Shown one piece after another: positions 1 to 13,647 of a DNA stretch of 64,000 nucleotides. Positions within the stretch are counted from its first letter, which is position 1. Each line of letters begins with the position of its first letter. This DNA comes from Flavobacteriaceae bacterium. Its GTDB lineage: Bacteria; Bacteroidota; Bacteroidia; Flavobacteriales; Flavobacteriaceae. Under the pieces are notes generated by a model, which worked only from the letters and a program-made list of their open reading frames with translations, had not been told where the DNA came from and did not search any database. A program made the translations under genes and the position numbers. The stretch covers positions 248,001-312,000 of the forward strand of contig JABABD010000005.1 of the NCBI GenBank assembly GCA_014238425.1, read 5' to 3'.

Positions 1-1804
1 TAGCAACATTAATGGCATGCGCGAGTTTTTCCTTGTCAACAAAATCTGCACCAACAGCTATGTTACTAGCAATAGTGTCATTAAAAATATAACCTTCCTG
101 CATCACCGTTCCACAATGGTCTCGCCAGACTTTTTGCGATATATTATTTAAATTAAAGTTATCAATAAGTATGTCACCTGTATCAACAGCGTAAAAATGC
201 AGTAATAGCTTCATTAAAGTAGTTTTTCCACTACCAGAAACGCCTACTATAGCTGTTGTTTTGTTAGCAGGAATGGTAAGTGATACGTCTTTTAAAACAG
301 GCTCTAATCCACCAGTATAGCGAAATGAAATATTTTTTAGTTGAATATCTGCTTGCTCTGGAATGTCTTTAATCGTTTGATTATCCGGATTTTCTTCATC
401 TTCTTTATTGTGGATTTCTCCTAAACGATCAATAGATATTTTGGCGTCTTGCACATCTCTCATAAATTCAATGAGCTGTGTAATAGGTGCATTTAATTGC
501 CCAATAATATAACTAATGGCCAGCATCATTCCTAAGGTGATATCACCATCAATAACCAATTTTGCAGATAAAACGGTAATGAGCATATTCTTAATCTCAT
601 TAATAAAATTGGAACCAACACTTTGTGTCTGCTCTAAGGCTAAACTTTTAGATGCGATCTTAAAGAGCCGCGCTTGAACATATTCCCAATTCCAACGCAT
701 GCGTCTTTCGGCATTATGCAATTTAATTTCCTGCATGCCATTAATAAGTTCAATGACCTTACTTTGCTCATCGCTTAGCTGCGAGAAGCGTTTATAATCG
801 AGTTCTTTTCGTTTTTTAAAGAAGAATAGTACCCATACAAAATATAATATGCTACCCAATACGAAGACCCCAAGTATTTGCATGCTATAATAGCCTAAAA
901 CAAAGCTGAAAATAATGAGATTGAACATCGAAAAAAGAACGGTAAGTGATGATGTCGTTAGAATGCGCTCAATACGACTATGGTCATTGATCCGTTGCAA
1001 CAGATCCCCAGTCATACGTACATCGAAAAAAGAAATGGGCAATTTCATGAGTTTGATAAAGAAATCTGAAATTAAAGAAATATTTATGCGAGTACTTAAG
1101 TGTAGCAAGATCCAACTACGTATAATTTCTAATGCGGCTTTACCAATAAAGAGAAAGAGTTGCGCTATTAAAATAAGGTAAATGAAATTTAGATCTTGAT
1201 TTTTTATACCAACATCAACGACACTTTGTGTAAGAAAAGGCAAGATGAGTTGCAGTAAACTCCCAGCAAGTAAACCAATAATGAGTTGTACAATAAAAGC
1301 TTTGTATTTAAAGAGATATTTAAATATAAAACCAAATCCAAACTTTTGATCTTCCTCAAAGGCACTTTCATAAAATAGAGGCGTTGGCTCCACCATCAGT
1401 GCAATACCTTCTTGGGTAAACTCGCTAGCATTATTGCCAATCCAATGCTTTAAAAATTCTTCTTTAGTATAAGTGAGTAAGCCATGTGCAGGATCTGAAA
1501 CATACACAATTCCCTTTTTTATTTTATAGATGACGACATAGTGGTTTTTATTCCAATGTACAATGCAAGGTAAAGGAGCTTCTAAGAGCTTATTATACGT
1601 TAATCTAACACCTAAAGAATGAAACCCCATGCTTTCTACAGCCTCACTAAGTCCAAGTAAGCTACTGCCTTCTCGTGTGGTTTCGCTTAGTGTACGGAGT
1701 TGTTGTGTATTAATTGTTTTTCCGTAGTGTTTGGAAATAATTTTAATACAGGTTGGACCGCAATCTTTGGCTTCAGTTTGAGTATAGTGTGGGAATTTTT
1801 TCAA
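1..1804 (-). CDS. C39-peptidase bacteriocin ABC exporter (partial, cut by window edge)
   Basis: Peptidase-containing ABC transporter that removes a GG-type leader while exporting the peptide across the inner membrane. The N-terminal C39 peptidase shows catalytic Cys15 in KDCGPTC, the His in NKNHYVV and the Asp in VSDPAHG. It is followed by a multi-helix membrane domain (roughly residues 155-430) and an ATPase domain whose Walker A motif GVSGSGKTT is visible; the signature motif and Walker B lie beyond the window. No in-frame ATG precedes KKFPHYTQ, so I take the TTG at 1804 as start. It is the natural exporter for the GG-leader precursor upstream at 2457, and its KGG/GG specificity would also suit the lanthipeptide precursors at 9.1-9.6 kb (inference). 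About 601 codons are visible of a usual 700-730. Confidence 0.93.
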   Translation of the reverse strand, partial: MKKFPHYTQTEAKDCGPTCIKIISKHYGKTINTQQLRTLSETTREGSSLLGLSEAVESMGFHSLGVRLTYNKLLEAPLPCIVHWNKNHYVVIYKIKKGIVYVSDPAHGLLTYTKEEFLKHWIGNNASEFTQEGIALMVEPTPLFYESAFEEDQKFGFGFIFKYLFKYKAFIVQLIIGLLAGSLLQLILPFLTQSVVDVGIKNQDLNFIYLILIAQLFLFIGKAALEIIRSWILLHLSTRINISLISDFFIKLMKLPISFFDVRMTGDLLQRINDHSRIERILTTSSLTVLFSMFNLIIFSFVLGYYSMQILGVFVLGSILYFVWVLFFFKKRKELDYKRFSQLSDEQSKVIELINGMQEIKLHNAERRMRWNWEYVQARLFKIASKSLALEQTQSVGSNFINEIKNMLITVLSAKLVIDGDITLGMMLAISYIIGQLNAPITQLIEFMRDVQDAKISIDRLGEIHNKEDEENPDNQTIKDIPEQADIQLKNISFRYTGGLEPVLKDVSLTIPANKTTAIVGVSGSGKTTLMKLLLHFYAVDTGDILIDNFNLNNISQKVWRDHCGTVMQEGYIFNDTIASNIAVGADFVDKEKLAHAINVA

Positions 1805-2268: not shown

Positions 2269-2457
2269 TTATAATAAAATACAAAAAGACACAATACCAA
2301 GAATTTTCCAACATTGGCATGGTTCTCTAAGTTGTTCACCTGTGTTTGTCGTTCTGCAACAAAAACCTTCGCCACATGGTCGCCATCCAGCTCCACCATT
2401 AATGGCTTTTTGTTCTTTTCTATTTAAGGTTTTTCCTAAATGTTTTAAATTTTTCAT
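2269..2457 (-). CDS. GG-leader, six-cysteine bacteriocin-like precursor
   Basis: 62-aa secreted peptide precursor. The leader MKNLKHLGKTLNRKEQKAI ends in NGG, the classic double-glycine site cut by C39 exporters. The predicted 40-aa core has cysteines at positions 6, 11, 12, 25, 27 and 37 and a hydrophobic C-terminus. An upstream in-frame ATG at 2493 would add 12 residues, but the leader family starts at MKNLK, so I use 2457. Six cysteines and an adjacent VKOR/thioredoxin protein suggest three disulfides (inference). It is flanked by its own upstream element (2488-2521) and terminator (2214-2245), and lies between the oxidoreductase and the exporter. Its activity is unknown. Confidence 0.85.
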   Translation of the reverse strand: MKNLKHLGKTLNRKEQKAINGGAGWRPCGEGFCCRTTNTGEQLREPCQCWKILGIVSFCILL

Positions 2458-2487
2458 AATAAAATAATTATAAATTATATTTGATGT

Positions 2488-2521
2488 GAACATTTAAAGA
2501 CACTCACAATTTGTGTCTATC
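2488..2521 (-). promoter_or_regulatory. Precursor upstream element, copy A (GACAC/GTGTC hairpin)
   Basis: Minus strand: GATAGACACAAATTGTGAGT followed by GTCTTTAAATGTTC, ending 30 nt before the precursor ATG. GACAC can pair with GTGTC, and an inner CACAA/TTGTG pairing is also possible. A perfect palindrome TCTCGCGAGA lies directly upstream at 2522-2531. It is shared with 2067-2100 and 11996-12030. It could be a 5' leader structure or an operator. Confidence 0.65.
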
Positions 2522-2594: not shown

Positions 2595-4217
2595 TTAAAC
2601 TGCTATTGAATCTGATTCAATAGATGTATTTATTGTTGAATTATATTCAATTAAATCTTCAATAAAATAGGAAATATCACTTCTTTCATATTCTTTAGGA
2701 AATTCTTTGCCATTAATATATAGTGCAGGTGTAAAGTTTATGTCATTGTCATGACACCATGTTTGTTGTTTTTCTAAAACTGTATCAAAAGAATGACTGG
2801 CGTTTTTCCAATGCTTTATCCAATTATCTAAATTCACATCATTTTTATAGGCATTATGTAAAGCATTTGCAAAGATGGTTTCAGGTTTTGTATTGTATAA
2901 TTCTAGAAGCCTGCTGGTTACTTTATAAGCAATGTTGTTTTTATCGCTAACATTTATACTGAAGCGTAGTGTTACCTTGAGGTGATTAGGATGTTTCTTT
3001 AATAGTTTTTCTATATCTGTATGCACAGTTTTGCAAAAATAACACTGTGGGTTTGTTACAAGAAGTATATGCAACGGTGCATTTTTATTGCCCAGAATAA
3101 TTTCTGATTCATGAACAGGTTGTGTGTTTAAAACTTTACCTTTACTATAAATGGCATTAAACAAATCGAAATTTCGTTTGAACTTATAGTGTTTGATTTG
3201 AAGTTTCTCTAAATCTTGACGTTTTATAATAAGAGGTTTTATAAAAAGCCATAATGCTGCAGTCAGGATGAAGCTAAAAAAAAGTATAACACCACTTTTT
3301 AAGCTGAGAGTTATATTTTCCATTAACCCATTAAGAGTAAATAAAGAACAGCACTGTAACCATAATACTGCTACTATAACTAAACATAATGGGCACCATT
3401 TTTTTATGACGAAGTACTGATAGTAAATCGAATATAGAGTTGCAGGAATTACGAATAGAGATATTGTAATAATTGAAACAATACTAACGCTAATATTTAC
3501 AAAAATTATCCAAGACAATGTTAAGCCTATAAAGTAAATAAGACTAATATCACTTAGCTTATAATGCTTTAAAATGGTAGCTCCTTTAGAGTTTAAAGCA
3601 GCATCACAACTTGTAGATTTATTGGCTGTACAAAATTTATTTACAATTTTAGATCGAAATCCAAACTCATGTTTAATAATTTGCAAACTAATAAATATAC
3701 CAACGAGTGATAGTACAAAATGTAAAGATGAAAATAGAGTAGGCTTGGCGAAAAAGAATGCTGCGAGTATAAAGAACCCACTTAATATATACAAACTATT
3801 AATAAATGCTGGATTATTTGTTTGTTTCGTTTTGGTTATAAATTCATTTTTTTCTACAGCCACAATAATTCCGTCCCAGATACTTAAAAAATTATCTACA
3901 GGCATTGAAGTTTTCTTTTTATCTCCTGAAATTACTTCTACACTATTTTTACGCTTAACAATGACCGAAAATTCTTTATCATTTTCGTTGTCAATCAATG
4001 CAATGAAAAATTTTGGAAGTTGAGAAAGCGTTTCTAGATTGGGTAAAACTTCAAGTGCTAAATTTTCAATATTGAAATGGTCTAAAACGCCAGTAATAGC
4101 ATGTAAACTAGGGTAGGAAGGATGAGATTCAATTTGTAGTTTAAGTTCACTTCGGTTAATCATTATTTTTAAATGAGATAATAACTTATCTAATACAAAA
4201 AATACATTGTCATTCAT
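2595..4217 (-). CDS. VKOR-thioredoxin fusion with degenerate C39-like N-terminus
   Basis: 540-aa inner-membrane thiol-oxidation protein. Residues 1-120 resemble a C39 fold but lack the catalytic Cys, so this part may bind leader peptides rather than cut them (inference). Residues 140-325 form the vitamin K epoxide reductase domain, with the loop cysteines C196 and C204 and the active-site pair C275-C278 (WCPLC). Residues 370-525 form a DsbA/thioredoxin-like domain with CYFC at 392-395. VKOR domains regenerate disulfide-donating thioredoxin partners, and here both are fused. The neighbouring six-cysteine precursor is a plausible substrate. It is divergent from the dehydratase gene at 4525 and followed by a terminator. 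Confidence 0.88.
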   Translation of the reverse strand: MNDNVFFVLDKLLSHLKIMINRSELKLQIESHPSYPSLHAITGVLDHFNIENLALEVLPNLETLSQLPKFFIALIDNENDKEFSVIVKRKNSVEVISGDKKKTSMPVDNFLSIWDGIIVAVEKNEFITKTKQTNNPAFINSLYILSGFFILAAFFFAKPTLFSSLHFVLSLVGIFISLQIIKHEFGFRSKIVNKFCTANKSTSCDAALNSKGATILKHYKLSDISLIYFIGLTLSWIIFVNISVSIVSIITISLFVIPATLYSIYYQYFVIKKWCPLCLVIVAVLWLQCCSLFTLNGLMENITLSLKSGVILFFSFILTAALWLFIKPLIIKRQDLEKLQIKHYKFKRNFDLFNAIYSKGKVLNTQPVHESEIILGNKNAPLHILLVTNPQCYFCKTVHTDIEKLLKKHPNHLKVTLRFSINVSDKNNIAYKVTSRLLELYNTKPETIFANALHNAYKNDVNLDNWIKHWKNASHSFDTVLEKQQTWCHDNDINFTPALYINGKEFPKEYERSDISYFIEDLIEYNSTINTSIESDSIAV

Positions 4218-4524: not shown

Positions 4525-6768
4525 ATGAGCGGGAACAATCCTTATAAACCTTTTTTAAAATATGTATTAAGAGTTCCTTTGTTTTCATTCTCCTTTTACA
4601 AACAATTCACTACAAAAAATAAGCTTGCCAATAAAGACTTAAAAGAGATTCTGAAAGATTCTAATTTTAAAGAAGCTTTATTTTTAGCTTCACCATCATT
4701 ATATAATGAAGTAATAAGATGGCTTGCTGGAGATTTAGAAGATGAAAGGAAAATCGAAAAGTTAAGATATTCTGTATTCAAATACATTTCCCGAATGTGT
4801 TCTAGATGTACACCTTTTGGTCTTTTTGCAGGATGTGGGGTTGGGCATTTTGGAGACGCTACAGAATTAGAGATAAAAGGAGCCACTGAGAATAAACGTC
4901 AGACCAGATTGGATATGAACTATCTAGTGGCTTTGTCTCAGGATTTGACAAAAGACCCAAACATCAAGAAACAATTATTGTTTTTTCCAAATACTAGTAT
5001 TTATAAGGCTGGAGACCAATTACGTTATGTAGAGTATTATTATCTCAATAGTAAACGAGTTCACCAAATAGTTGCTGTATCCAATTCTATATACTTACAA
5101 AAAGTGCTGAAAAAAGCTTATGAAGGTGCTTTGTTAAAAGATCTTGTAAGCACTCTGATGGATGATGAGATTACTATGGAAGAAGCTTATGGGTTTATTG
5201 ATGAACTTATAGATAGTCAATTATTGGTTAGTGAGTTGGAGCCTTCAGTATCTGGAACTGAATTTTTGAAGCAGATTTATGATGTCTTGAAGAACCTAAA
5301 AGGTGTTGAAAAGATTCTCACTACTCTAGAAGAAATCGAAAGAAAATTATTAAAGATTGACCAGCATATAGGGAATGACCCACAGTTATACATCGATTTA
5401 AGCGATTATATCAAAATATTAGGCACTGATTACGACTTAAAATACTTGTATCAGACAGACATGATATTAAATGCTAAGGAGAACACTATCAATAAAGAAC
5501 TCCTTAATAATATAAAGAAAGGGATGTTATTAATGAATAGAATGTCCCAATATGTTGAGAATACTGATATAGCTGATTTTAAAGATGCTTTTTTAAAGCG
5601 TTATGAACAGCGACAAATAGCATTATCCAAAGCTTTAGACGTTGAAATAGGGTTAGGTTACCTTCAGGATAGAAGTCATGGAGACGTTAATCCATTGATT
5701 GACGATCTTGTATTATCGATACCTTCTTCAAAAGATAGAGTAGTAGATTTAAAATGGAGTACTGTTGATAATTTGATGCATAGGAAGTTGACAAAAGCTT
5801 TTCAAGAAAAAGCATATGTAGTTAAGATAACGGATACAGAGTTTGAGGGTCATGAAGCACAATGGAGTAATTTACCAGATACAATATCGTGCATGGTAGA
5901 ATTGTTGAGCATAGATGGTCAAGAAAAAATTAAGTTTAGTGGCTGCGGCGGATCTAGTGCTGCTAATTTGATGGGACGCTTTTGTCATGCAGATAAAGAA
6001 CTCAATGATTATGCTCGAGAGATTGTTGCCATGGAATCCAAAATGAATCCTAATATTATACTTGCAGAAATAGTACACCTTCCCGAATCTCGTGTAGGTA
6101 ATATTTTGATGCGTCCAGATTTTCGTGATTATGAGATTCCATATTTAGCGAGGTCCACTAAGTCAGAAGTTTATCAGTTACCTTTGGATGATCTCATGAT
6201 TTCGGTTAGAAGAGGAAAAATCATATTAATTTCTAAGAAACTCAATAAAGAAATCCGTCCTCATCTTACCAATGCTCATAATTTTTCATCTAATTCATTG
6301 CCTATTTATCATTTCCTTTGTGATTTACAAACCCAAGATTTACGTCGTGGCATAGGATTTAACTTTGGCCCTTTAGTTAATGAATATGAGTTTTTGCCAA
6401 GAGTAGAATATGAAAATTTGATACTTCATAATGCAACCTGGAATCTAGGAAAATTACACATCGAAATCTTGATAGCTACCCAAAAAGATGATAAAAAACT
6501 TTTGGAGGCTATAAAAAGGATGCGAAAAAAATTAAGAATGCCAGAGTATGTTATGCTTGTTGACGGAGATAATGAATTATTAATAAACATGGAAAACCTT
6601 ACTTCGGTCAGGATGCTTCTCAGTATCGTTAGCAAGCGTCCAACATTCAAGCTTAAAGAATTTCTATTCATTGATGATTGTAGTGTTAAAGGAAAGAATG
6701 AACGATACACTAATCAGGTCATTGTATCTTTTTATAATAGTGACAAACTAAAAATCGAGTCTCAATGA
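4525..6768 (+). CDS. Lanthipeptide dehydratase, glutamylation half (split LanB)
   Basis: 747-aa Lant_dehydr_N-family protein. In class I lanthipeptide synthesis this domain transfers glutamate from glutamyl-tRNA onto Ser/Thr of the precursor. The N-terminus [10 protein letters not shown] is the usual family opening, and motifs such as [11 protein letters not shown] near residue 92 and the HNF(S)[10 protein letters not shown] stretch near residue 590 support the call. A full LanB is about 1000 aa; here the elimination domain is a separate gene that overlaps this one by ATGA. The split resembles that described for pinensin dehydratases of Chitinophaga (from memory). The likely substrates are the KGG precursors at 9072 and 9423. 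It is convergent with the LanC gene. Confidence 0.93.
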
Positions 6769-7661
6769 TAGTGAAGCATGATAGTATTCAACGCCGCTTC
6801 CTTCCAGGGGATAGCTGGCTGTATTATAAGTTGTATACTGGAGCTAAGACCTCAGACATAATTTTAACGACCATAATAAAGCCAGTATCAGAGCAATTGT
6901 TTGCAGAAGGAATTTGCGACCAATGGTTTTTTATTAGATACAGAGATCCTAAACATCATTTGCGCATACGATTTCATTATACAAAATCTAGTAATGTTGA
7001 AATAATTATCAATAGATTGAAACCGTACTTTAATGAATTTGTTGAACAAGATCTCATTTGGAGCGTACAAATAGATACCTATCAGAGGGAGTTAGAACGA
7101 TATGGTAGTAATACCATGATATTGTCTGAAGCATTATTTTATCATGATAGTAAGATGATTGTTAATTTTATTGATATGATAGAAGGAGATGAAGGAGAAG
7201 AATTACGCTGGTTGTTTTCATTGAGGGCCATTGATGCTCTTTTGAATGTTTTCAATTTAGACAATAACGAGAAATTAAAATTAATGGATATTTTGAAAAC
7301 GAGTTTTAGGGGTGAATTCGATACCTCTAAAGCATTAGGAAAGCAACTTAATGATAAGTACAGAAAATATCGTGAACGCATAGATGCTTTCATGACTTTT
7401 ACAGCAAAAGAAAATCCTGATCATAGCGCAATACTAAATGTGTTGGATACAAGGCATAAAGCAATAGAATCTATTGCTAAATCTGTGCTGAAGTGTAAAG
7501 AAAATGACAAACTTGAAGTGCAACTTAATGATTTGATAGCTAGTTATATACACATGCATATGAACCGTCTTTTTAAATCAAAAAACCGTATGCATGAAAT
7601 GGTATGTTACGATTTTTTGTGTCGCTACTATAGATCATTGATAGCGCGTACAGGTGGTTAG
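6765..7661 (+). CDS. Lanthipeptide dehydratase, elimination half (thiopeptide-type LanB C-domain)
   Basis: 298-aa protein of the Lant_dehydr_C / thiopeptide-type bacteriocin biosynthesis family, which eliminates glutamate from glutamylated Ser/Thr to give dehydroamino acids. Typical features are the opening [15 protein letters not shown], the [17 protein letters not shown] block near residue 55 and the C-terminal HMHMNRLF...[11 protein letters not shown] segment. The start overlaps the stop of the glutamylation half by 4 nt (ATGA), so the two are translationally coupled and presumably form one enzyme. Length is normal for a stand-alone elimination subunit. Confidence 0.93.
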
Positions 7662-7738
7662 ATTAATTATAGCAATACTTCATTCTTATACCTATTGTCG
7701 ATAGCACGCTATTCCTTATTAAAAACAAGGTCTTTTTT

Positions 7739-8956
7739 CTACCCAATCATCAAGCATTCATCCCATTTAGTTTCAAAAGACGCTAAATGCGATATGATTG
7801 CCAAGCCTATACCTGATATGCCTTCCAGAAGGTTTACTTCCTTACGCCAACCTGGATTATCCCCGCCACGCCATTGATAATACCCAGCATAACCGTCTTT
7901 ATGTATGGCCATGTCAAGAGCTTGTTGTAGCCAATATATAGCTGTTTCTTTAAATACAGGCTCTTGTGTCTCTTTGTACATATAATTAAAGATATGAGCC
8001 ACACCATAAGAACCATGACATAACCCAGCATCCATTATTCTGGCTTCTTCGATATCTCTACGTTTTGTTGAGTGTTTAAGAACTGTTAGCGCTTTTTTGC
8101 ATAATTCTTGATCTGACAATATTTTACCAGCCCTCCATAAAGATATACCAATGCCTAAGTCTCCGTAACACCATGCTAATCTTGCATTCTTACTTTTTTC
8201 GTTAGTGGTCGTAATCCAATCCGGAAAGCATGAAGTACTAGTAACAGAATCGTAATGCTGTTGTAAAATATAGTTAGTTGCTTGTTGCAAGAGTGTTATT
8301 GTAGCGTCCTTAAAATCGCTATGTTCGGCAAGACGTGCCAAGAAATTGGTAATGCTAGATATGCCGTGAGATAAACTAAGATTATAACCTCTTAGTTTTT
8401 CTGAAAAGATTAAATTAGATTCCCATTTAGCAGTATTGCCTTTTATTAAAGCTGTTTCTTGTAATTTGCTTATAATTTTTAGTAAGTATCTTTTATAGTT
8501 TGATTTAAGCTCTGTAGAAGCCGTGTTTTCATAACGTTTTAAGAAGTATAAGCCAATACCAATATTACCATGAAGAAAATCATAGAAATTATAGCGTTTA
8601 TCGACTTGTAATGAGCTTTCTAAAAAATCATCTAAATTGCCTAGTAAGGCATCAGAGTCAAGCTCGATGAAATCTTCTTCTCGTAGCAACTCTATGGCCC
8701 AAGCTGCACCTGCAATGCCTGTACAAAATGTAGGCATATGGTAACCTTTATTTATCTTTTGAACGACCGAGCTAATGATGTCTGAGCCAATAGATGCATT
8801 GATTTCTTGCTGTTTGAACTTGGAATAATAAAAGTGAAACAAAGCAATGCCAGTAGAGCCAGTTAAAACTCCTATGTTATCAATGTCTTTATAATCTACT
8901 TGAAGTATAGCATTTATTTCTTCAAGCTTACTTAATAATTGACTGTTTTTTACCAT
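7739..8956 (-). CDS. LanC-like lanthionine cyclase
   Basis: 405-aa zinc enzyme that adds cysteine thiols to dehydroamino acids to close (methyl)lanthionine rings. The zinc ligands are visible: Cys263 in WCYGD and Cys313-His314 in GLCHGSYG. Other LanC repeats show as SLSHGISS and FLHGNIGIG. I start at the ATG at 8956 (MVKNSQLL). The in-frame ATG at 8989 falls inside a perfect terminator-like hairpin (8973-9000), so the 11 extra residues it would add are unlikely. It lies downstream of the two short precursors on the same strand and faces the split LanB genes, 77 bp away. Confidence 0.93.
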   Translation of the reverse strand: MVKNSQLLSKLEEINAILQVDYKDIDNIGVLTGSTGIALFHFYYSKFKQQEINASIGSDIISSVVQKINKGYHMPTFCTGIAGAAWAIELLREEDFIELDSDALLGNLDDFLESSLQVDKRYNFYDFLHGNIGIGLYFLKRYENTASTELKSNYKRYLLKIISKLQETALIKGNTAKWESNLIFSEKLRGYNLSLSHGISSITNFLARLAEHSDFKDATITLLQQATNYILQQHYDSVTSTSCFPDWITTTNEKSKNARLAWCYGDLGIGISLWRAGKILSDQELCKKALTVLKHSTKRRDIEEARIMDAGLCHGSYGVAHIFNYMYKETQEPVFKETAIYWLQQALDMAIHKDGYAGYYQWRGGDNPGWRKEVNLLEGISGIGLAIISHLASFETKWDECLMIG

Positions 8957-8972
8957 AGATGATAATAAGGAT

Positions 8973-9000
8973 AAAAGCTGTCTAAACATAGACAGCTTTT
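8973..9000 (-). terminator. Hairpin between lanthipeptide precursor and lanC
   Basis: Perfect 12-bp stem AAAAGCTGTCTA / TAGACAGCTTTT with an AACA loop, 72 nt after the precursor stop and 16 nt before the lanC start at 8956. It probably acts as a partial terminator giving more precursor than cyclase mRNA. Confidence 0.75.
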
Positions 9001-9071
9001 AAAAATAGTTAAAAGATTAGGTTCTATATAATGATTGAATACAAAACAACAAATCTATTAAGCTTGTTACA

Positions 9072-9218
9072 TTAATAACATTGTCTTCCAGGAGGTGGAC
9101 AAGAATTAAAAGCGTCATAAGTTGGACAACAATGTGTATCGCCACCTTTTATTTTACTCAATTCTAATTTGCTAATAACTTCTTTTTTAAGTGTTAAACT
9201 TTTTAATGACTTCTTCAT
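9072..9218 (-). CDS. Class I lanthipeptide precursor (KGG leader)
   Basis: 48-aa peptide, too short for routine gene calling. The leader begins MKKSLKSLTLKKEVISKLEL and ends in KGG, matching the LxLKKxxIxxL pattern of Bacteroidota lanthipeptide leaders. The predicted 22-aa core DTHCCPTYDAFNSCPPPGRQ plus CY has Thr2, Thr7, Ser13 and Cys4, 5, 14, 21, so up to three rings are possible. It is directly upstream of lanC on the same strand, separated by a hairpin. The KGG site could be cut by the C39 exporter at 1-1804. Ring pattern and activity are unknown. Confidence 0.82.
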   Translation of the reverse strand: MKKSLKSLTLKKEVISKLELSKIKGGDTHCCPTYDAFNSCPPPGRQCY

Positions 9219-9281
9219 GATATTGAAAATTAAGTTTTATAAATACCTACTCTATTAAAAGGTTTTCGGTTTCCCCTTATA

Positions 9282-9293
9282 TACTGTACAGTA
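9282..9293. promoter_or_regulatory. 12-bp perfect palindrome TACTGTACAGTA
   Basis: Perfect palindrome 64 nt upstream of the precursor start at 9218, in the 200-bp space between the two lanthipeptide precursors. Its position fits an operator for that precursor's promoter, possibly for the TPR/AraC-type regulator nearby. There is no direct evidence for a binding protein. Confidence 0.35.
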
Positions 9294-9375
9294 ATAAAAT
9301 TCTTAGTTTAAAATTAGAGTTATAAAGGTGTATTAAAAAGAAGGGGTTCCTTATATTGAATAAAATAGGGCATAA

Positions 9376-9403
9376 AAAAACCCTATAAATTTATAGGGTT
9401 TTT
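9376..9403 (-). terminator. Terminator after the second lanthipeptide precursor
   Basis: Perfect stem AAAAACCCTATAAA / TTTATAGGGTTTTT flanked by A and T runs on both sides, 20 nt past the stop of the precursor at 9423-9587. It looks like a strong Rho-independent terminator. Confidence 0.85.
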
Positions 9404-9422
9404 AATTGCTGATTTTGAACTC

Positions 9423-9587
9423 TTAAGGGGTGTGACCACCGTTGCAAAAAATATCTGATTCATGCGTTGTCCAACCTTCCTCAGTTGGAAGACAATCGCC
9501 TCCTTTTATGGTAGACATCATGTCACGACTTATCTTCGCTATCGTTAGTTTTTTTAAAGAAATCTTGCCTTCTGCTTGTTTTTTCAT
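9423..9587 (-). CDS. Second class I lanthipeptide precursor (KGG leader)
   Basis: 54-aa peptide. The leader MKKQAEGKISLKKLTIAKIS continues to STIKGG. The SLKKLTIAKIS block is equivalent to TLKKEVISKLE of the neighbouring precursor. The predicted 24-aa core starts DCLPTEEGWTTHESDIFCNG and has Cys2, Cys18 and Thr5, 10, 11, 23 and Ser14, so at most two rings and several unringed dehydro-residues. The core is unrelated to that of the 9072 peptide, suggesting a two-peptide product or two independent products. It has its own strong terminator and an inverted repeat upstream (9615-9636). Confidence 0.8.
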   Translation of the reverse strand: MKKQAEGKISLKKLTIAKISRDMMSTIKGGDCLPTEEGWTTHESDIFCNGGHTP

Positions 9588-9714: not shown

Positions 9715-11415
9715 TTATTGGTTGGTTTGAATCTGTAATTGATTAATTTGTTTTATATAGTATGAAGGATTCAATCCTGTCTTGGATTTAAAATGCTTAG
9801 CGAACGAATAGTCACTTTTATAGCCTACTTCAGTTGCAATGGATTTTATGGAGAACGAGCGAAATTGCTTATCATTTCTTAAGCGTTTTATAGTATAATC
9901 TATGCGAAGGTCATTGATATAGTCATTAAAATTCTTGGCTTTGTGGGTGTTGATAATCTTAGATAGATACGTCGCATTGGTTTTGACCTTCTTGGCAACG
10001 GAACGTAAATTACAGCTAGAATTCAGGTAATATTCTTGTTTTTCGAGTTTGTTCAATCGTTCAATGATGGCGGCTATCTTATTGTCATTGATGATGATTT
10101 CCTTAACTGAAGACGTAGCTTTTTGCTCTAAAGCTTCTAATGTGGTGATTTTTTCCATTAGATTGTTGAATACAACTTTATTGGATTTCTGTTTTTTTCG
10201 ATACTTGATTAAGAGCATAATAAGCGTGAGTATGCCGATAGATAAAATAATCAATATATACCAGTAGTTTCTTTTACGTTTTAATTGATCTTTCCTTAAT
10301 TTCTCGATTTTTAGGTCAAGATCTTTGGTGTCTTTTTTATGTATTTTATCAACGGTTTGACGCTGGTTTTGATGAGACTGATCCTTTAATTGATCGTGTT
10401 TAGCATACCAGCTGAGAGCTTCATCTGCTGAACCAATTTTTTCGAGACTTTTAGCTAAGAGACGATGTGCCTTAAGAACTTGCCCTTTCCTTGGATCTAT
10501 TGGGTCGCCAAAAAGAGGTAAGATTTCCTTTAGGAGCGAAATCGCTTTATGATACATTTCTTTTTCGTAAAAACAATGTGCTTTGGCATATTTCAGGTTG
10601 ATAAGAAACTTATTGTTTTTAATATCATTGTCTTTGATAGTCCTTTCGGCCTTGCCTAAATAATCCATGGCTCCTTCAAAATCTTTGTTCAGGCAATGGA
10701 TAATGCCTTTTTTTATATAAAGGTCTATCATACCATTATGATAGCTTATTTTCTTGCTCAATGCAATACCTTTATCAGCATAGAAGGATGAAGAATCCAA
10801 TTGCTTGAGATCGATATGGATTTCACTTAAAATAGTTATGATGTTAATAGAATTTTTTTCTTCAAGGATTAGTTTTGAGGCATCATGACATATTTTTAGG
10901 GCCTCCTCGTTTTTTTTCATCCGTCTATAGATAATGGCAATACCCGATAGAGCTTTAGCTTTACAGTTAAGGTCTTTCGTTTTTTTTGAATAGTCTATTG
11001 ATTCATAATAAGCACCGAGGGCTTGTTGATTCTTCCAATCTAGTAGAAAGACATTTCCTTGCCTTAGATATGCAAGGGACAAGAGTCTATCGTTCTCAAT
11101 ATTTTTTGCAAAACCAATGGCTTTGTCTAAGTAGTACTGACTGCGTTGATACGTTTCTTTTTTGTAAAAGGCATAGCTAATATCAAGATAGATTTCGGCA
11201 AGTTCTTTCTTGTCAATGGGAAATTCTAGTAAAACTTCTTCATGTACTTTTGCATGTTCTGTATCTGAATCCTTGATAAGGACTATTAAGTCGTTTATTG
11301 AAACGTCTTGAGCTTGAACCTCTGATGTTGTAATAATTATAAACAACACCGTGGTAATTGACGCTTTTAAAAACATATATAATCCGTGTGTCATACTATT
11401 GCTATAAGGAATCAA
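9715..11415 (-). CDS. TPR - transmembrane - AraC-type HTH regulator
   Basis: 566-aa one-component regulator of a Bacteroidota type. A signal peptide or N-anchor ending EVQAQ is followed by about six tetratricopeptide repeats (residues ~40-340), a transmembrane helix (~385-405, YILIILSIGILTLIMLLI), a short coiled segment and a C-terminal AraC-family double helix-turn-helix (~465-560: SVAKKVKTNATYLSKII and SIATEVGYKSDYSFAKHF). The TPRs would face the periplasm and the DNA-binding domain the cytoplasm. ATGs at 11394 or 11376 are alternative starts. It sits among the precursor genes and is the only regulator in the island, so it probably controls them (inference). Confidence 0.88.
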   Translation of the reverse strand: MIPYSNSMTHGLYMFLKASITTVLFIIITTSEVQAQDVSINDLIVLIKDSDTEHAKVHEEVLLEFPIDKKELAEIYLDISYAFYKKETYQRSQYYLDKAIGFAKNIENDRLLSLAYLRQGNVFLLDWKNQQALGAYYESIDYSKKTKDLNCKAKALSGIAIIYRRMKKNEEALKICHDASKLILEEKNSINIITILSEIHIDLKQLDSSSFYADKGIALSKKISYHNGMIDLYIKKGIIHCLNKDFEGAMDYLGKAERTIKDNDIKNNKFLINLKYAKAHCFYEKEMYHKAISLLKEILPLFGDPIDPRKGQVLKAHRLLAKSLEKIGSADEALSWYAKHDQLKDQSHQNQRQTVDKIHKKDTKDLDLKIEKLRKDQLKRKRNYWYILIILSIGILTLIMLLIKYRKKQKSNKVVFNNLMEKITTLEALEQKATSSVKEIIINDNKIAAIIERLNKLEKQEYYLNSSCNLRSVAKKVKTNATYLSKIINTHKAKNFNDYINDLRIDYTIKRLRNDKQFRSFSIKSIATEVGYKSDYSFAKHFKSKTGLNPSYYIKQINQLQIQTNQ

Positions 11416-12062: not shown

Positions 12063-12266
12063 ATGAAAAAACTAAGAGATTTAAAAGATGCCAAAATACT
12101 TGATTCTGGCCAACAGAAATTAATTACAGGTGGTTTTTTACCGCTTGGACGTTTCTGTTGTGGGTGTATTACACCAAACTCAAATGGAATTCTAGAAATA
12201 ATTGAAGTGGATTGCAATAGTGATTGTCCAGATGGTTCTCCTTCTGTATCTGGACTAGGTTGTTAG
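12063..12266 (+). CDS. GG-leader, six-cysteine bacteriocin-like precursor
   Basis: 67-aa peptide. The leader MKKLRDLKDAKILDSGQQKL ends in ITGG. The 43-aa core has cysteines at positions 8, 9, 11, 27, 31 and 43, rich in Gly, Ser and Pro. It lacks the LKK-type lanthipeptide leader, so I group it with the precursor at 2269 as a likely disulfide-bonded peptide exported by the C39 transporter. The shared upstream element (11996-12030) supports joint control despite the 9.6 kb distance. It is followed by a very strong terminator and then the core-genome rodA gene, so it marks the right boundary of the island. Confidence 0.82.
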   Translation: MKKLRDLKDAKILDSGQQKLITGGFLPLGRFCCGCITPNSNGILEIIEVDCNSDCPDGSPSVSGLGC

Positions 12267-12366: not shown

Positions 12367-13647
12367 CTACCATTCATTAATTCTATTGCTGTCTAATCTA
12401 ATAAAGATGAATAGTAATAACGTATAAGCTAAAATACCTGAACCACCATAACTAAAGAATGGTAGAGGGATTCCAATGGTAGGAATCAGACCCATGACCA
12501 TTCCTATATTGATTAAGAAATGAATAAAGAAAATGGAAGCCACTGCGTAGCCATAAACTCGACTAAATTGACTTTTTTGTAATTCTGCGCGTTGGAGAAT
12601 TCTAATAATAAGTAATACAAAAAGAAGAACCACTATGGTGCTTCCTATAAAACCCCATTCTTCACCTACAGTACTGAAAATGTAATCTGTATGTTGCTCA
12701 GGCACGAATTTACCTGTAGTACGTGTGCCTTCCATAAATCCTTTTCCTGTAAATCCACCTGAACCAATGGCTTTTTCTGATTCATTGAGGTTATAGAGGA
12801 TGGTTTTCTTCATCTTCTCCAATTTCACTGGATCTTTCTCTAAACGAAGCCATAAACTAATTCTGTCTTGTTGATGTGGTTGTAAGATGCTGTTGTAGAA
12901 GAATTTAACACCAAAAGATAAACCTATAGAAAGAATGATGATAGATAATGGTTGTAATAGATTAGGTCGTTTTTTTCGACCAAAGAAATGTATTATAAAA
13001 ATAATCGCAGCGGTTAGCAGGACAGCTGATAAAACTCCAAATTTAAGAGTTAAAATACCTACTAATATCAAGAATACGGCAACTAATAAATACCACTGAG
13101 GCAAGCCTTCTCTATAAAACACAAAAAAGAAAGCACTATAGACAATGGTGCTACCTGCATCGTTTTGAAGTAAGATTAATATAGCAGGAATTCCAATAAT
13201 TACAAATAAACGAACCTGATCCTTAAATGTTTTTATATTAGTTTGTAGGTCACTAATATATTTTGCAACGGCTAAAGATGTGGCAACCTTAGCAAATTCA
13301 CTAGGTTGTACGGTGAAACCACCAATGCCATACCAAGAAGTCGCACCAGAAACTGTTTTGCCAAAAAGAAAAAGCCCAAGCAACAATACAATAGAGAGTA
13401 TATATATGATGCTTGAGAACCGTTCATAAAACTTAGATTCAATAGATAGAATAAGTATGATTAGAACAAAGGATAAAATGATGAATATCGCTTGCTTTCC
13501 ATATGGTTGACTAATATCGAAATAACTGTTTACGTCTCCTGTATGTGATGCTGATAAGATATTAATCCAGCCAAAACCAACTAGTAATACATAAATTAGA
13601 ATGGAAATCCAATCAAAATTGTAGTTTCTATTCCTGTCCGGACTCAT
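12367..13647 (-). CDS. rodA: Peptidoglycan glycosyltransferase RodA
   Basis: 426-aa SEDS-family membrane glycosyltransferase that polymerises lipid II during lateral wall growth with its transpeptidase partner PBP2. It has about ten membrane helices, the family segments GSGGFTGKGFMEGTRT and FVPEQHTDYIFSTVGEEWGF, and the C-terminal GIPLPFFSYGGSG signature. The start overlaps the end of mrdA by 20 nt and it is the last gene of the mreBCD-mrdA-rodA operon. Confidence 0.96.
   Translation of the reverse strand: MSPDRNRNYNFDWISILIYVLLVGFGWINILSASHTGDVNSYFDISQPYGKQAIFIILSFVLIILILSIESKFYERFSSIIYILSIVLLLGLFLFGKTVSGATSWYGIGGFTVQPSEFAKVATSLAVAKYISDLQTNIKTFKDQVRLFVIIGIPAILILLQNDAGSTIVYSAFFFVFYREGLPQWYLLVAVFLILVGILTLKFGVLSAVLLTAAIIFIIHFFGRKKRPNLLQPLSIIILSIGLSFGVKFFYNSILQPHQQDRISLWLRLEKDPVKLEKMKKTILYNLNESEKAIGSGGFTGKGFMEGTRTTGKFVPEQHTDYIFSTVGEEWGFIGSTIVVLLFVLLIIRILQRAELQKSQFSRVYGYAVASIFFIHFLINIGMVMGLIPTIGIPLPFFSYGGSGILAYTLLLFIFIRLDSNRINEW

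Follow-up and report, generated by a model that had tools for sequence, protein, structure and literature searches.

As of 2020, the pinensins were the only lanthipeptides that had been isolated from Bacteroidetes, and nearly a quarter of the class I LanCs are found in this group (PMC7268733). The class I clusters described in the same source comprise split LanBs, leaders with the motif LxLxKx5L, GG ends and C39 proteases, and some of their LanCs resemble the cyclase domains of LanM. For the pinensin cluster a split pinB1/pinB2 has been described, together with a pinensin-like cluster in Sinomicrobium oceani (PMC10112250). Here, a cluster from a Flavobacteriaceae bacterium (assembly GCA_014238425.1) was analysed, which lies in a stretch of 64,000 nucleotides (contig JABABD010000005.1, positions 248,001 to 312,000), in the following referred to as the window. 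The window starts 248 kb into a contig of 313,690 bases, and the genome comprises 3.75 Mb. The cluster is a class I lanthipeptide cluster with a dehydratase in two halves (LanB1, LanB2), a cyclase (LanC) and two precursor peptides, of which, as far as the sequences indicate, LanA1 is probably a secreted product and LanA2 probably a secreted signal read by a neighbouring TPR-AraC regulator. Leader motif, GG end, C39 protease, split LanB and LanM-like LanC are shared with the systems of PMC7268733, and the machinery of the cluster is of a known kind. The core family of LanA1 with its CPPPG motif, the pairing of regulator and LanA2, and an RNA element before lanA1 are not mentioned in the main-text passages of that paper.

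Read from right to left, the genes are arranged in the order TPR-AraC regulator, LanA2, LanA1, LanC, LanB1-LanB2, a C39-like-VKOR-thioredoxin gene, a GG peptide, a C39 exporter and an HlyD adaptor. The features of the central part are as follows:

4525..6768, plus strand: lanB1, glutamylation half of the dehydratase, 747 amino acids (PF04738, E 4.4e-148)
6765..7661, plus strand: lanB2, elimination half of the dehydratase, 298 amino acids (PF14028, E 4.8e-74)
7739..8956, minus strand: lanC, cyclase, reading frame open to 8989 and start uncertain (PF05147, E 1.1e-48; LSHG, WCYG, CHG)
8972..9001, minus strand: 13-bp hairpin between lanA1 and lanC, likely an attenuator (fold z -4.5)
9072..9218, minus strand: lanA1, precursor of 48 amino acids, CPPPG core family, likely the product
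9244..9279, minus strand: DUF805b cis-regulatory RNA (RF02914), 25 nucleotides before lanA1 (48.1 bits, gathering threshold 35.6)
9376..9403, no strand assigned: hairpin behind lanA2 that has a T run on both strands, probably a terminator (12-bp stem, fold z -5.0)
9423..9587, minus strand: lanA2, precursor of 54 amino acids, likely the signal (NF038153, 22.1 bits, cut-off 22)
9715..11415, minus strand: regulator with TPR part, membrane helix and AraC part, 566 amino acids (TPR_12, HTH_18; hydrophobic peaks at about 10 and at 383-405)

Pfam assigns LanB1, LanB2, LanC, the exporter and the HlyD adaptor. LanC keeps the motifs LSHG, WCYG and CHG, the latter two of which we take to be metal-ligand motifs. 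All nine published dehydratase residues of MadB are kept across the two LanB halves, with R90, R94, T96, D130, D312 and R485 of LanB1 aligning with the six glutamylation residues and R69, R112 and H263 of LanB2 with the three elimination residues. The frames of lanB1 and lanB2 overlap by 4 nucleotides, and the break between the proteins coincides with the domain border of MadB, whose authors assign residues 1-741 and 742-1038 to the two domains (PMC12241602). Domains, catalytic residues and leader matches thus agree with the original prediction, which was made from the letters of the DNA and had read a split LanB, a LanC and two KGG precursors as a class I lanthipeptide set; the core compositions it gave were also found, namely four Cys and three Ser/Thr in LanA1 and two Cys and five Ser/Thr in LanA2. 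As for the leaders, a search with NF038153 over the whole genome of the bacterium ranked LanA2 first and LanA1 second (13.0 bits, under the cut-off), and with TIGR04149 both peptides were again the top two, both under the cut-off of 25. P0066, a relative of LanA1 that NCBI names a class I lanthipeptide, passes NF038153 with 31.0 bits, and a precomputed PF28317 annotation is present on LanA2 and P0066.

A protein search with LanA1 returned 11 relatives besides itself, and a profile from 30 members reached 129 proteins at E<=0.01, of which 120 are listed and 9 unlisted. The usual end of the core, [T/S]xxC-x-T-x4-N-[S/T]-C-PPPG-xx-C, fits 91 of the 120 listed proteins, while the other 29 are off-pattern and were excluded from the cores compared; about half of these keep CPPPG at the end but differ in the part before it. 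When duplicates are set aside, 85 modules remain, in which Ser/Thr occupies the three donor positions in 83, 85 and 85 cases; positions one and three swap Ser and Thr freely, and the intervening residues vary. This restriction fits donors of rings and is hard to reconcile with disulfides. Consequently, little weight is given to the explanation that LanA1 is a disulfide peptide formed via the VKOR-thioredoxin protein while LanB and LanC serve other substrates, which we regard as very improbable. It could account for the surplus of four Cys over three Ser/Thr and for the presence of the VKOR-thioredoxin gene with its two CxxC motifs in the same genomic island, but a relative of this gene occurs in only 1 of 30 LanA1 loci, compared to LanC in 26, and the restricted positions would be unexpected.

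These 30 loci were obtained by a genome scan with the LanA1 profile and belong to Aquimarina, Dokdonia, Lacinutrix, Sinomicrobium, Kordia and unplaced Flavobacteriaceae; the five weakest (L082-L086) match chiefly in the leader, and no pair of the 30 shares a 200-mer at the tested positions. The absence of leader homologues beside LanB/LanC genes elsewhere had been named beforehand as an observation that would speak against the cluster. Such homologues are present, since 26 of the 30 loci contain LanC and 20 contain LanB1 in the fetched stretch, and all ten genomes without LanB1 in that stretch have LanB2 elsewhere. In five loci (L059, L067, L068, L077 and L078), LanA1-LanC cassettes without LanB in the stretch were observed, with LanB2 elsewhere in the same genomes; for such cassettes dehydration in trans is likely. 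Compared to its counterpart in L059, lanA1 differs at codon positions 1, 2 and 3 by 3, 8 and 22 changes, in line with a coding sequence. A further observation concerns P0117 from Flavobacteriaceae bacterium R38, a Cys-rich precursor of 97 amino acids that carries the CPPPG module as its tail, as if the module were portable. Neither LanA1 nor LanA2 matched solved structures at E<=1, and a literature search for CPPPG together with lanthipeptide gave nothing, printed sequences being poorly searchable. The CPPPG core family as a feature of LanA1 is new here. The cores had been called unrelated to known lantibiotics; this has to be amended in that each belongs to a conserved family of its own.

In the case of LanA2 the protein search returned only the peptide itself, while synteny revealed 37 distinct LanA2-type peptides in 27 loci, the window included. 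Their leaders follow KKLTIA[KR]I...GG, and their cores mostly start with [D/S][C/S]xPT. A regulator lies at most 700 nucleotides upstream on the same strand of all 33 LanA2 genes tested, and likewise in the window; these 33 are drawn from the 36 other LanA2-type peptides, with L057:1665, L073:7985 and L181 left out. Conversely, 44 of the 52 regulator frames in LanA1 loci, a number that includes fragments, are followed by a GG open reading frame (ORF), compared to 203 of 3000 random points. The regulator itself is hydrophobic at its start, and a single strong membrane helix separates its TPR part from its AraC part; the genome holds one full-length regulator of this kind, the other 18 matches covering the C-terminal part only. 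An alternative would be that only LanA1 is dehydrated and cyclised, whereas LanA2 is an unmodified or non-functional leader-bearing peptide retained because it is located next to the regulator, which its leader might, for instance, inhibit. Six of the 37 cores indeed lack [S/T]x2-4C, and the core is variable. Since a possible ring is kept in the remaining 31, the core as well as the leader follows the sensor, and LanA2 carries a coding signal, this explanation is considered improbable. The differences between lanA2 and its counterpart in L059 amount to 14, 12 and 23 at codon positions 1, 2 and 3.

The relation of the two cores to sensor and cyclase was described by partial correlations, each locus contributing one regulator, one LanA2, one LanA1 and one LanC; of the 20 listed loci and the window, one had no LanC ORF and was excluded, resulting in 20 loci. 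With LanC held constant, the LanA2 core is correlated with the sensor part (0.49, p 0.0003), while with the sensor held constant its correlation with LanC is only 0.04 (p 0.40). For the LanA1 core the opposite holds true, with 0.56 (p 0.01) for LanC at constant sensor and 0.15 (p 0.08) for the sensor at constant LanC. Linkage alone should favour the DNA-binding part, because this part is nearest to LanA2 on the DNA; nevertheless, it adds nothing for the LanA2 core when the sensor is held constant (-0.27 in the 20 loci, -0.01 in 34 pairs). The co-variation therefore gives moderate support to LanA2 as the putative ligand of the sensor. Together with its position behind the regulator, the tracking of the sensor rather than LanC by the LanA2 core and of LanC by the LanA1 core indicates that LanA2 is likely the signal and LanA1 likely the product.

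Two-peptide lantibiotics are common, and an alternative would be that LanA1 and LanA2 are both effectors acting together while the regulator senses something else. This would agree with the fact that both GG precursors adjoin one enzyme set, and the pinensins, too, are called a two-component lanthipeptide (PMC13060382). It appears unlikely, though, as all 33 LanA2 genes tested immediately follow the regulator, a likely terminator separates lanA2 from lanA1, the RNA element found with LanA1 is mostly absent from LanA2, and the LanA2 core tracks the sensor and not LanC and is variable, while that of LanA1 is conserved. Hence, the two peptides are probably not equivalent.

Several observations weigh against LanA2 as a signal and LanA1 as a lanthipeptide product. 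In a separate scan LanA1 again stayed under the NF038153 cut-off (14.6 compared to 22), and the product of the nearby C39-like-VKOR-thioredoxin gene could introduce disulfides in place of the rings. The co-variation was tested post hoc, in related loci and with short peptides, and neighbouring genes share their history; moreover, the AraC part alone is weakly linked to the LanA2 core (0.21, p 0.06), and the LanA2 leaders track the sensor and the AraC part equally (0.68 and 0.69). Export by C39 exporter and HlyD adaptor should take LanA2 out of the cell, so that a periplasmic sensor would need its re-entry. Finally, among 30 relatives of the regulator chosen without regard to LanA, a GG peptide follows in only 11, the window among them (eight by script, of which one was false by eye, and four more seen by eye). 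This count rules out that every TPR-AraC protein is paired with a GG peptide; the pairing is a feature of a subset. Like the CPPPG family, the LanA2 family and its pairing with the regulator are new here.

The second level of control could reside in the RNA before lanA1. A near-invariant element was found 18-25 nucleotides before the start codon in 30 of 35 LanA1 genes, and the one in the window matches DUF805b of Rfam above the gathering threshold. In the alignment of these 30 elements, whose rows were chosen by motif while five genes had none, two-sided changes occur in all three loop-closing pseudoknot pairs and in two of the four stem pairs, thus in five of seven pairs. Pairing is kept in 97% of 203 cells, values as high as those observed arise in 0-1 of 500 shuffles, and in 6 of 29 rows the outermost stem pair is broken. 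A model of the RNA gave 80 matches in 82 loci, 77 of them distinct (L044 and L073 lie on the same contig), where 30 of the 80 are the model's own seeds and the loci had been chosen for peptides. Directly behind 74 of the 80 matches (72 of the 77 distinct ones) a small ORF of the GG/GQ type is present, and this also holds true for 42 of the 47 distinct matches that are not seeds; four of the 80 precede larger proteins, and for the remainder no ORF was found. Because just two LanA2-type genes have such an element (L057 and, weakly, L081), the RNA is chiefly associated with LanA1. Outside the family, the two loci L145 and L147 also carry it before a GG peptide.

Within the genome, two DUF805b copies lie above the threshold, of which the lanA1 copy is the best and the other precedes a gene of 401 amino acids. 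As a separate observation, the copies at L213-L216, mostly under the gathering threshold, stand 9-18 nucleotides before this gene, two genes with signal-like starts and a lipoprotein-like gene, these names being given by eye; they hint at a wider regulon. The association with lanA1 may be incidental, and the RNA may be a 5' leader that exported proteins of Bacteroidota have in general. As the other copies, though mostly weak, precede genes that do not encode ribosomally synthesised and post-translationally modified peptides, two of them with signal-like starts, and as 4 of 80 matches precede larger proteins, we regard this as a real possibility, albeit on the doubtful side: no other copy in the genome scores as high as that of lanA1, and 74 of 80 matches precede small ORFs of the GG/GQ type, in loci that were chosen for peptides. 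The association of LanA1 and DUF805b is reported here as new. A literature search for DUF805 gave no title on the RNA, and a search for riboswitch together with lanthipeptide gave none on the topic by title among the matches listed. To our knowledge, the trigger of DUF805b is not known.

Altogether, the following course of events is proposed. LanB1 would glutamylate Ser/Thr of the cores and LanB2 would perform the elimination, after which LanC would close the thioether rings, in LanA1 presumably Thr2-Cys5, Thr7-Cys14 and Ser13-Cys21 with one spare Cys. The C39 exporter would cut behind GG and export the peptides with its HlyD partner, LanA1 as a putatively active product. The sensor of the regulator is predicted outside the inner membrane and the AraC part inside; binding of mature LanA2 to the sensor would switch on the lanA1-lanC unit, with the DUF805b RNA upstream of lanA1 as a putative further level of control. 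Gene content, catalytic residues, conserved cores, the adjacency of regulator and LanA2, the RNA match and the island borders are read directly from the sequences, while dehydration, ring pattern, processing, sensing and activity are predictions; signalling is what we infer from adjacency and co-variation. More tentatively, and with somewhat more doubt than belief, it can be suggested that LanA2 founds a family of lanthionine-bridged pheromones, each with its own TPR-AraC regulator, which would induce a CPPPG LanA1 with a DUF805b messenger and thereby constitute a one-component, two-layer quorum sensing across Flavobacteriaceae. The conserved core family across several genera represents a concrete product to seek, and the RNA before 30 of 35 precursor genes offers a setting for a search for its trigger. 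If the regulator indeed has its own peptide, silent clusters could be woken by synthetic peptide, and the control of lanthipeptides in a little-studied group would become directly testable.

The split of the dehydratase was compared in a wider set of genomes. A search with LanB2 gave a match in 23 of 299 family genomes, 21 of which showed a stand-alone elimination protein (frames of 282-353 amino acids) and two a fused LanB (1040 and 1069 amino acids). In a class-wide sample, LanC matched in 37 of 395 genomes, and one locus was fetched from each of 20 of these 37; both halves were visible in 15 loci outside the family, all fused (1023-1112 amino acids), one family locus (L128) was split, and in 4 of the 20 both halves were not visible. 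A split LanB is therefore usual within Flavobacteriaceae and not special to the window, so that the split itself, as first proposed, was confirmed, but as a common trait of the family. An assembly error or a pseudogene was rejected as its origin, as both halves are open and 21 of 23 matching family genomes show the split. Apart from this, 12 of 22 family LanB1/LanB2 loci (L042, L045-L054 and L056, with L047 fused) contained no LanC in the fetched stretch (tblastn, 1e-4), and several of these carry a TPR-AraC regulator and a GG peptide. Perhaps such loci make dehydrated, uncyclised peptides, or their cyclase lies elsewhere.

The start of lanC at 8956, as originally predicted, received mixed support. 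The longest ORF begins at 8989, and since this ATG lies in the loop of the 13-bp hairpin, the start at 8956 is favoured, while the alignments of four relatives (L039, L040, L041 and L044) begin before LanC residue 12 and count against it. A hairpin follows 15 of 35 LanA1 genes and 16 of 24 LanA2 genes, compared to 7 of 400 random stretches. Terminator-like sites were more frequent than expected (10 compared to 4.1), while the scan for sigma-70 promoters was uninformative, with 51 sites compared to 54 expected. In L058, L063, L069 and L070, two LanC genes stand in tandem behind CPPPG precursors, and in L142 and L129 from other Bacteroidia, seven and nine GG precursors are arrayed next to LanC.

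The further features around the cluster are as follows:

1..1804, running 382 nucleotides left of the window, minus strand: C39 peptidase-ABC exporter, 728 amino acids (PF03412, PF00664, PF00005)
after the C39 exporter, outside the window: HlyD adaptor (HlyD_3)
2269-2493, minus strand: further GG peptide, Cys-rich
2595-4217, minus strand: C39-like-VKOR-thioredoxin gene (CxxC at 275 and 392)
12063-12266, plus strand: Cys-rich small ORF with GG leader
12368..12415, no strand assigned: right copy of a 48-bp direct repeat, end of a rodA-like gene, with the left copy 1.8 kb beyond the left edge of the window

The exporter has an intact TEAKDCGP motif and shares 69-73% identity with exporters that immediately follow LanB2 in L057, L060, L062 and L080. 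The genome contains two C39 matches, this exporter and the Cys-free C39-like domain of 2595-4217. It had been stated that no dedicated LanT or LanP is present and that the C39 exporter may serve; this is modified here in that the C39 exporter at the left edge of the window is likely the cognate one. Exporters as close as those of Dokdonia, however, also occur in loci without LanC (66-79%), which speaks against this assignment. The C39-like-VKOR-thioredoxin protein was rejected as leader protease, as its C39 part has no Cys, and it was not counted as lan machinery because a relative was found in 1 of 30 LanA1 loci; possibly it is a leader-binding disulfide oxidase for GG peptides. The ORFs at 2269-2493 and 12063-12266, located in the same island, have other leader types with weak matches to NF047798 and PF14406, both under the cut-off, and possibly share the exporter.

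The cluster lies inside an island of 14.1 kb, bounded on either side by the same 48 bp of the rodA 3' end, a sequence present only twice in the genome; this location is likewise new here. In G148, the one genome of the same genus sampled (87% complete, without a LanB2 match), the site is empty: a methyltransferase gene directly follows the rodA-like gene, while in the genome of the window it lies left of the HlyD gene (both names given by eye). Because the rodA end is duplicated, a gain in the window's genome is likelier than a clean loss in G148. No integrase was noticed among the ORFs of the island, in which no search aimed at integrases was made, and the 52 family and LanA1 stretches tested all lacked this rodA and this methyltransferase at E 1e-10.

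Compared to the pinensin cluster, the window likewise shows a split LanB, LanC and a transporter (PMC10112250), and pinensin-family traits are found at the enzyme level with the split LanB and the LanM-like LanC. In the genome of S. oceani, LanB2 was found at a single locus, L154, which we infer to be the pinensin-like cluster of PMC10112250. Its LanB1, LanB2 and LanC are 56, 59 and 46% identical to those of the window, while the GG peptides seen in L154 have no CPPPG module, and the CPPPG peptides of S. oceani are located in another locus (L068). MadB and NisB share the nine catalytic residues and the domain order with the dehydratase of the window, which is formed by two polypeptides instead of one. 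Unlike NisC-type cyclases, LanC scores best with the LanM model among NCBIfam, although below its cut-off, and NisC ranks fourth among the solved structures. In agreement with RF02914, the RNA scores above the gathering threshold and its pseudoknot pairs co-vary, but here it stands before lanthipeptide precursors. The cluster is thus ordinary in kind and well founded, and the two layers of control, not met in the passages of literature consulted, make it more than another cluster. In lantibiotics of the nisin type, autoinduction runs through two-component systems. As in these, a secreted peptide would induce its own cluster, but in contrast to them, the induction would rest on a separate precursor and a single TPR-AraC protein that spans the membrane.

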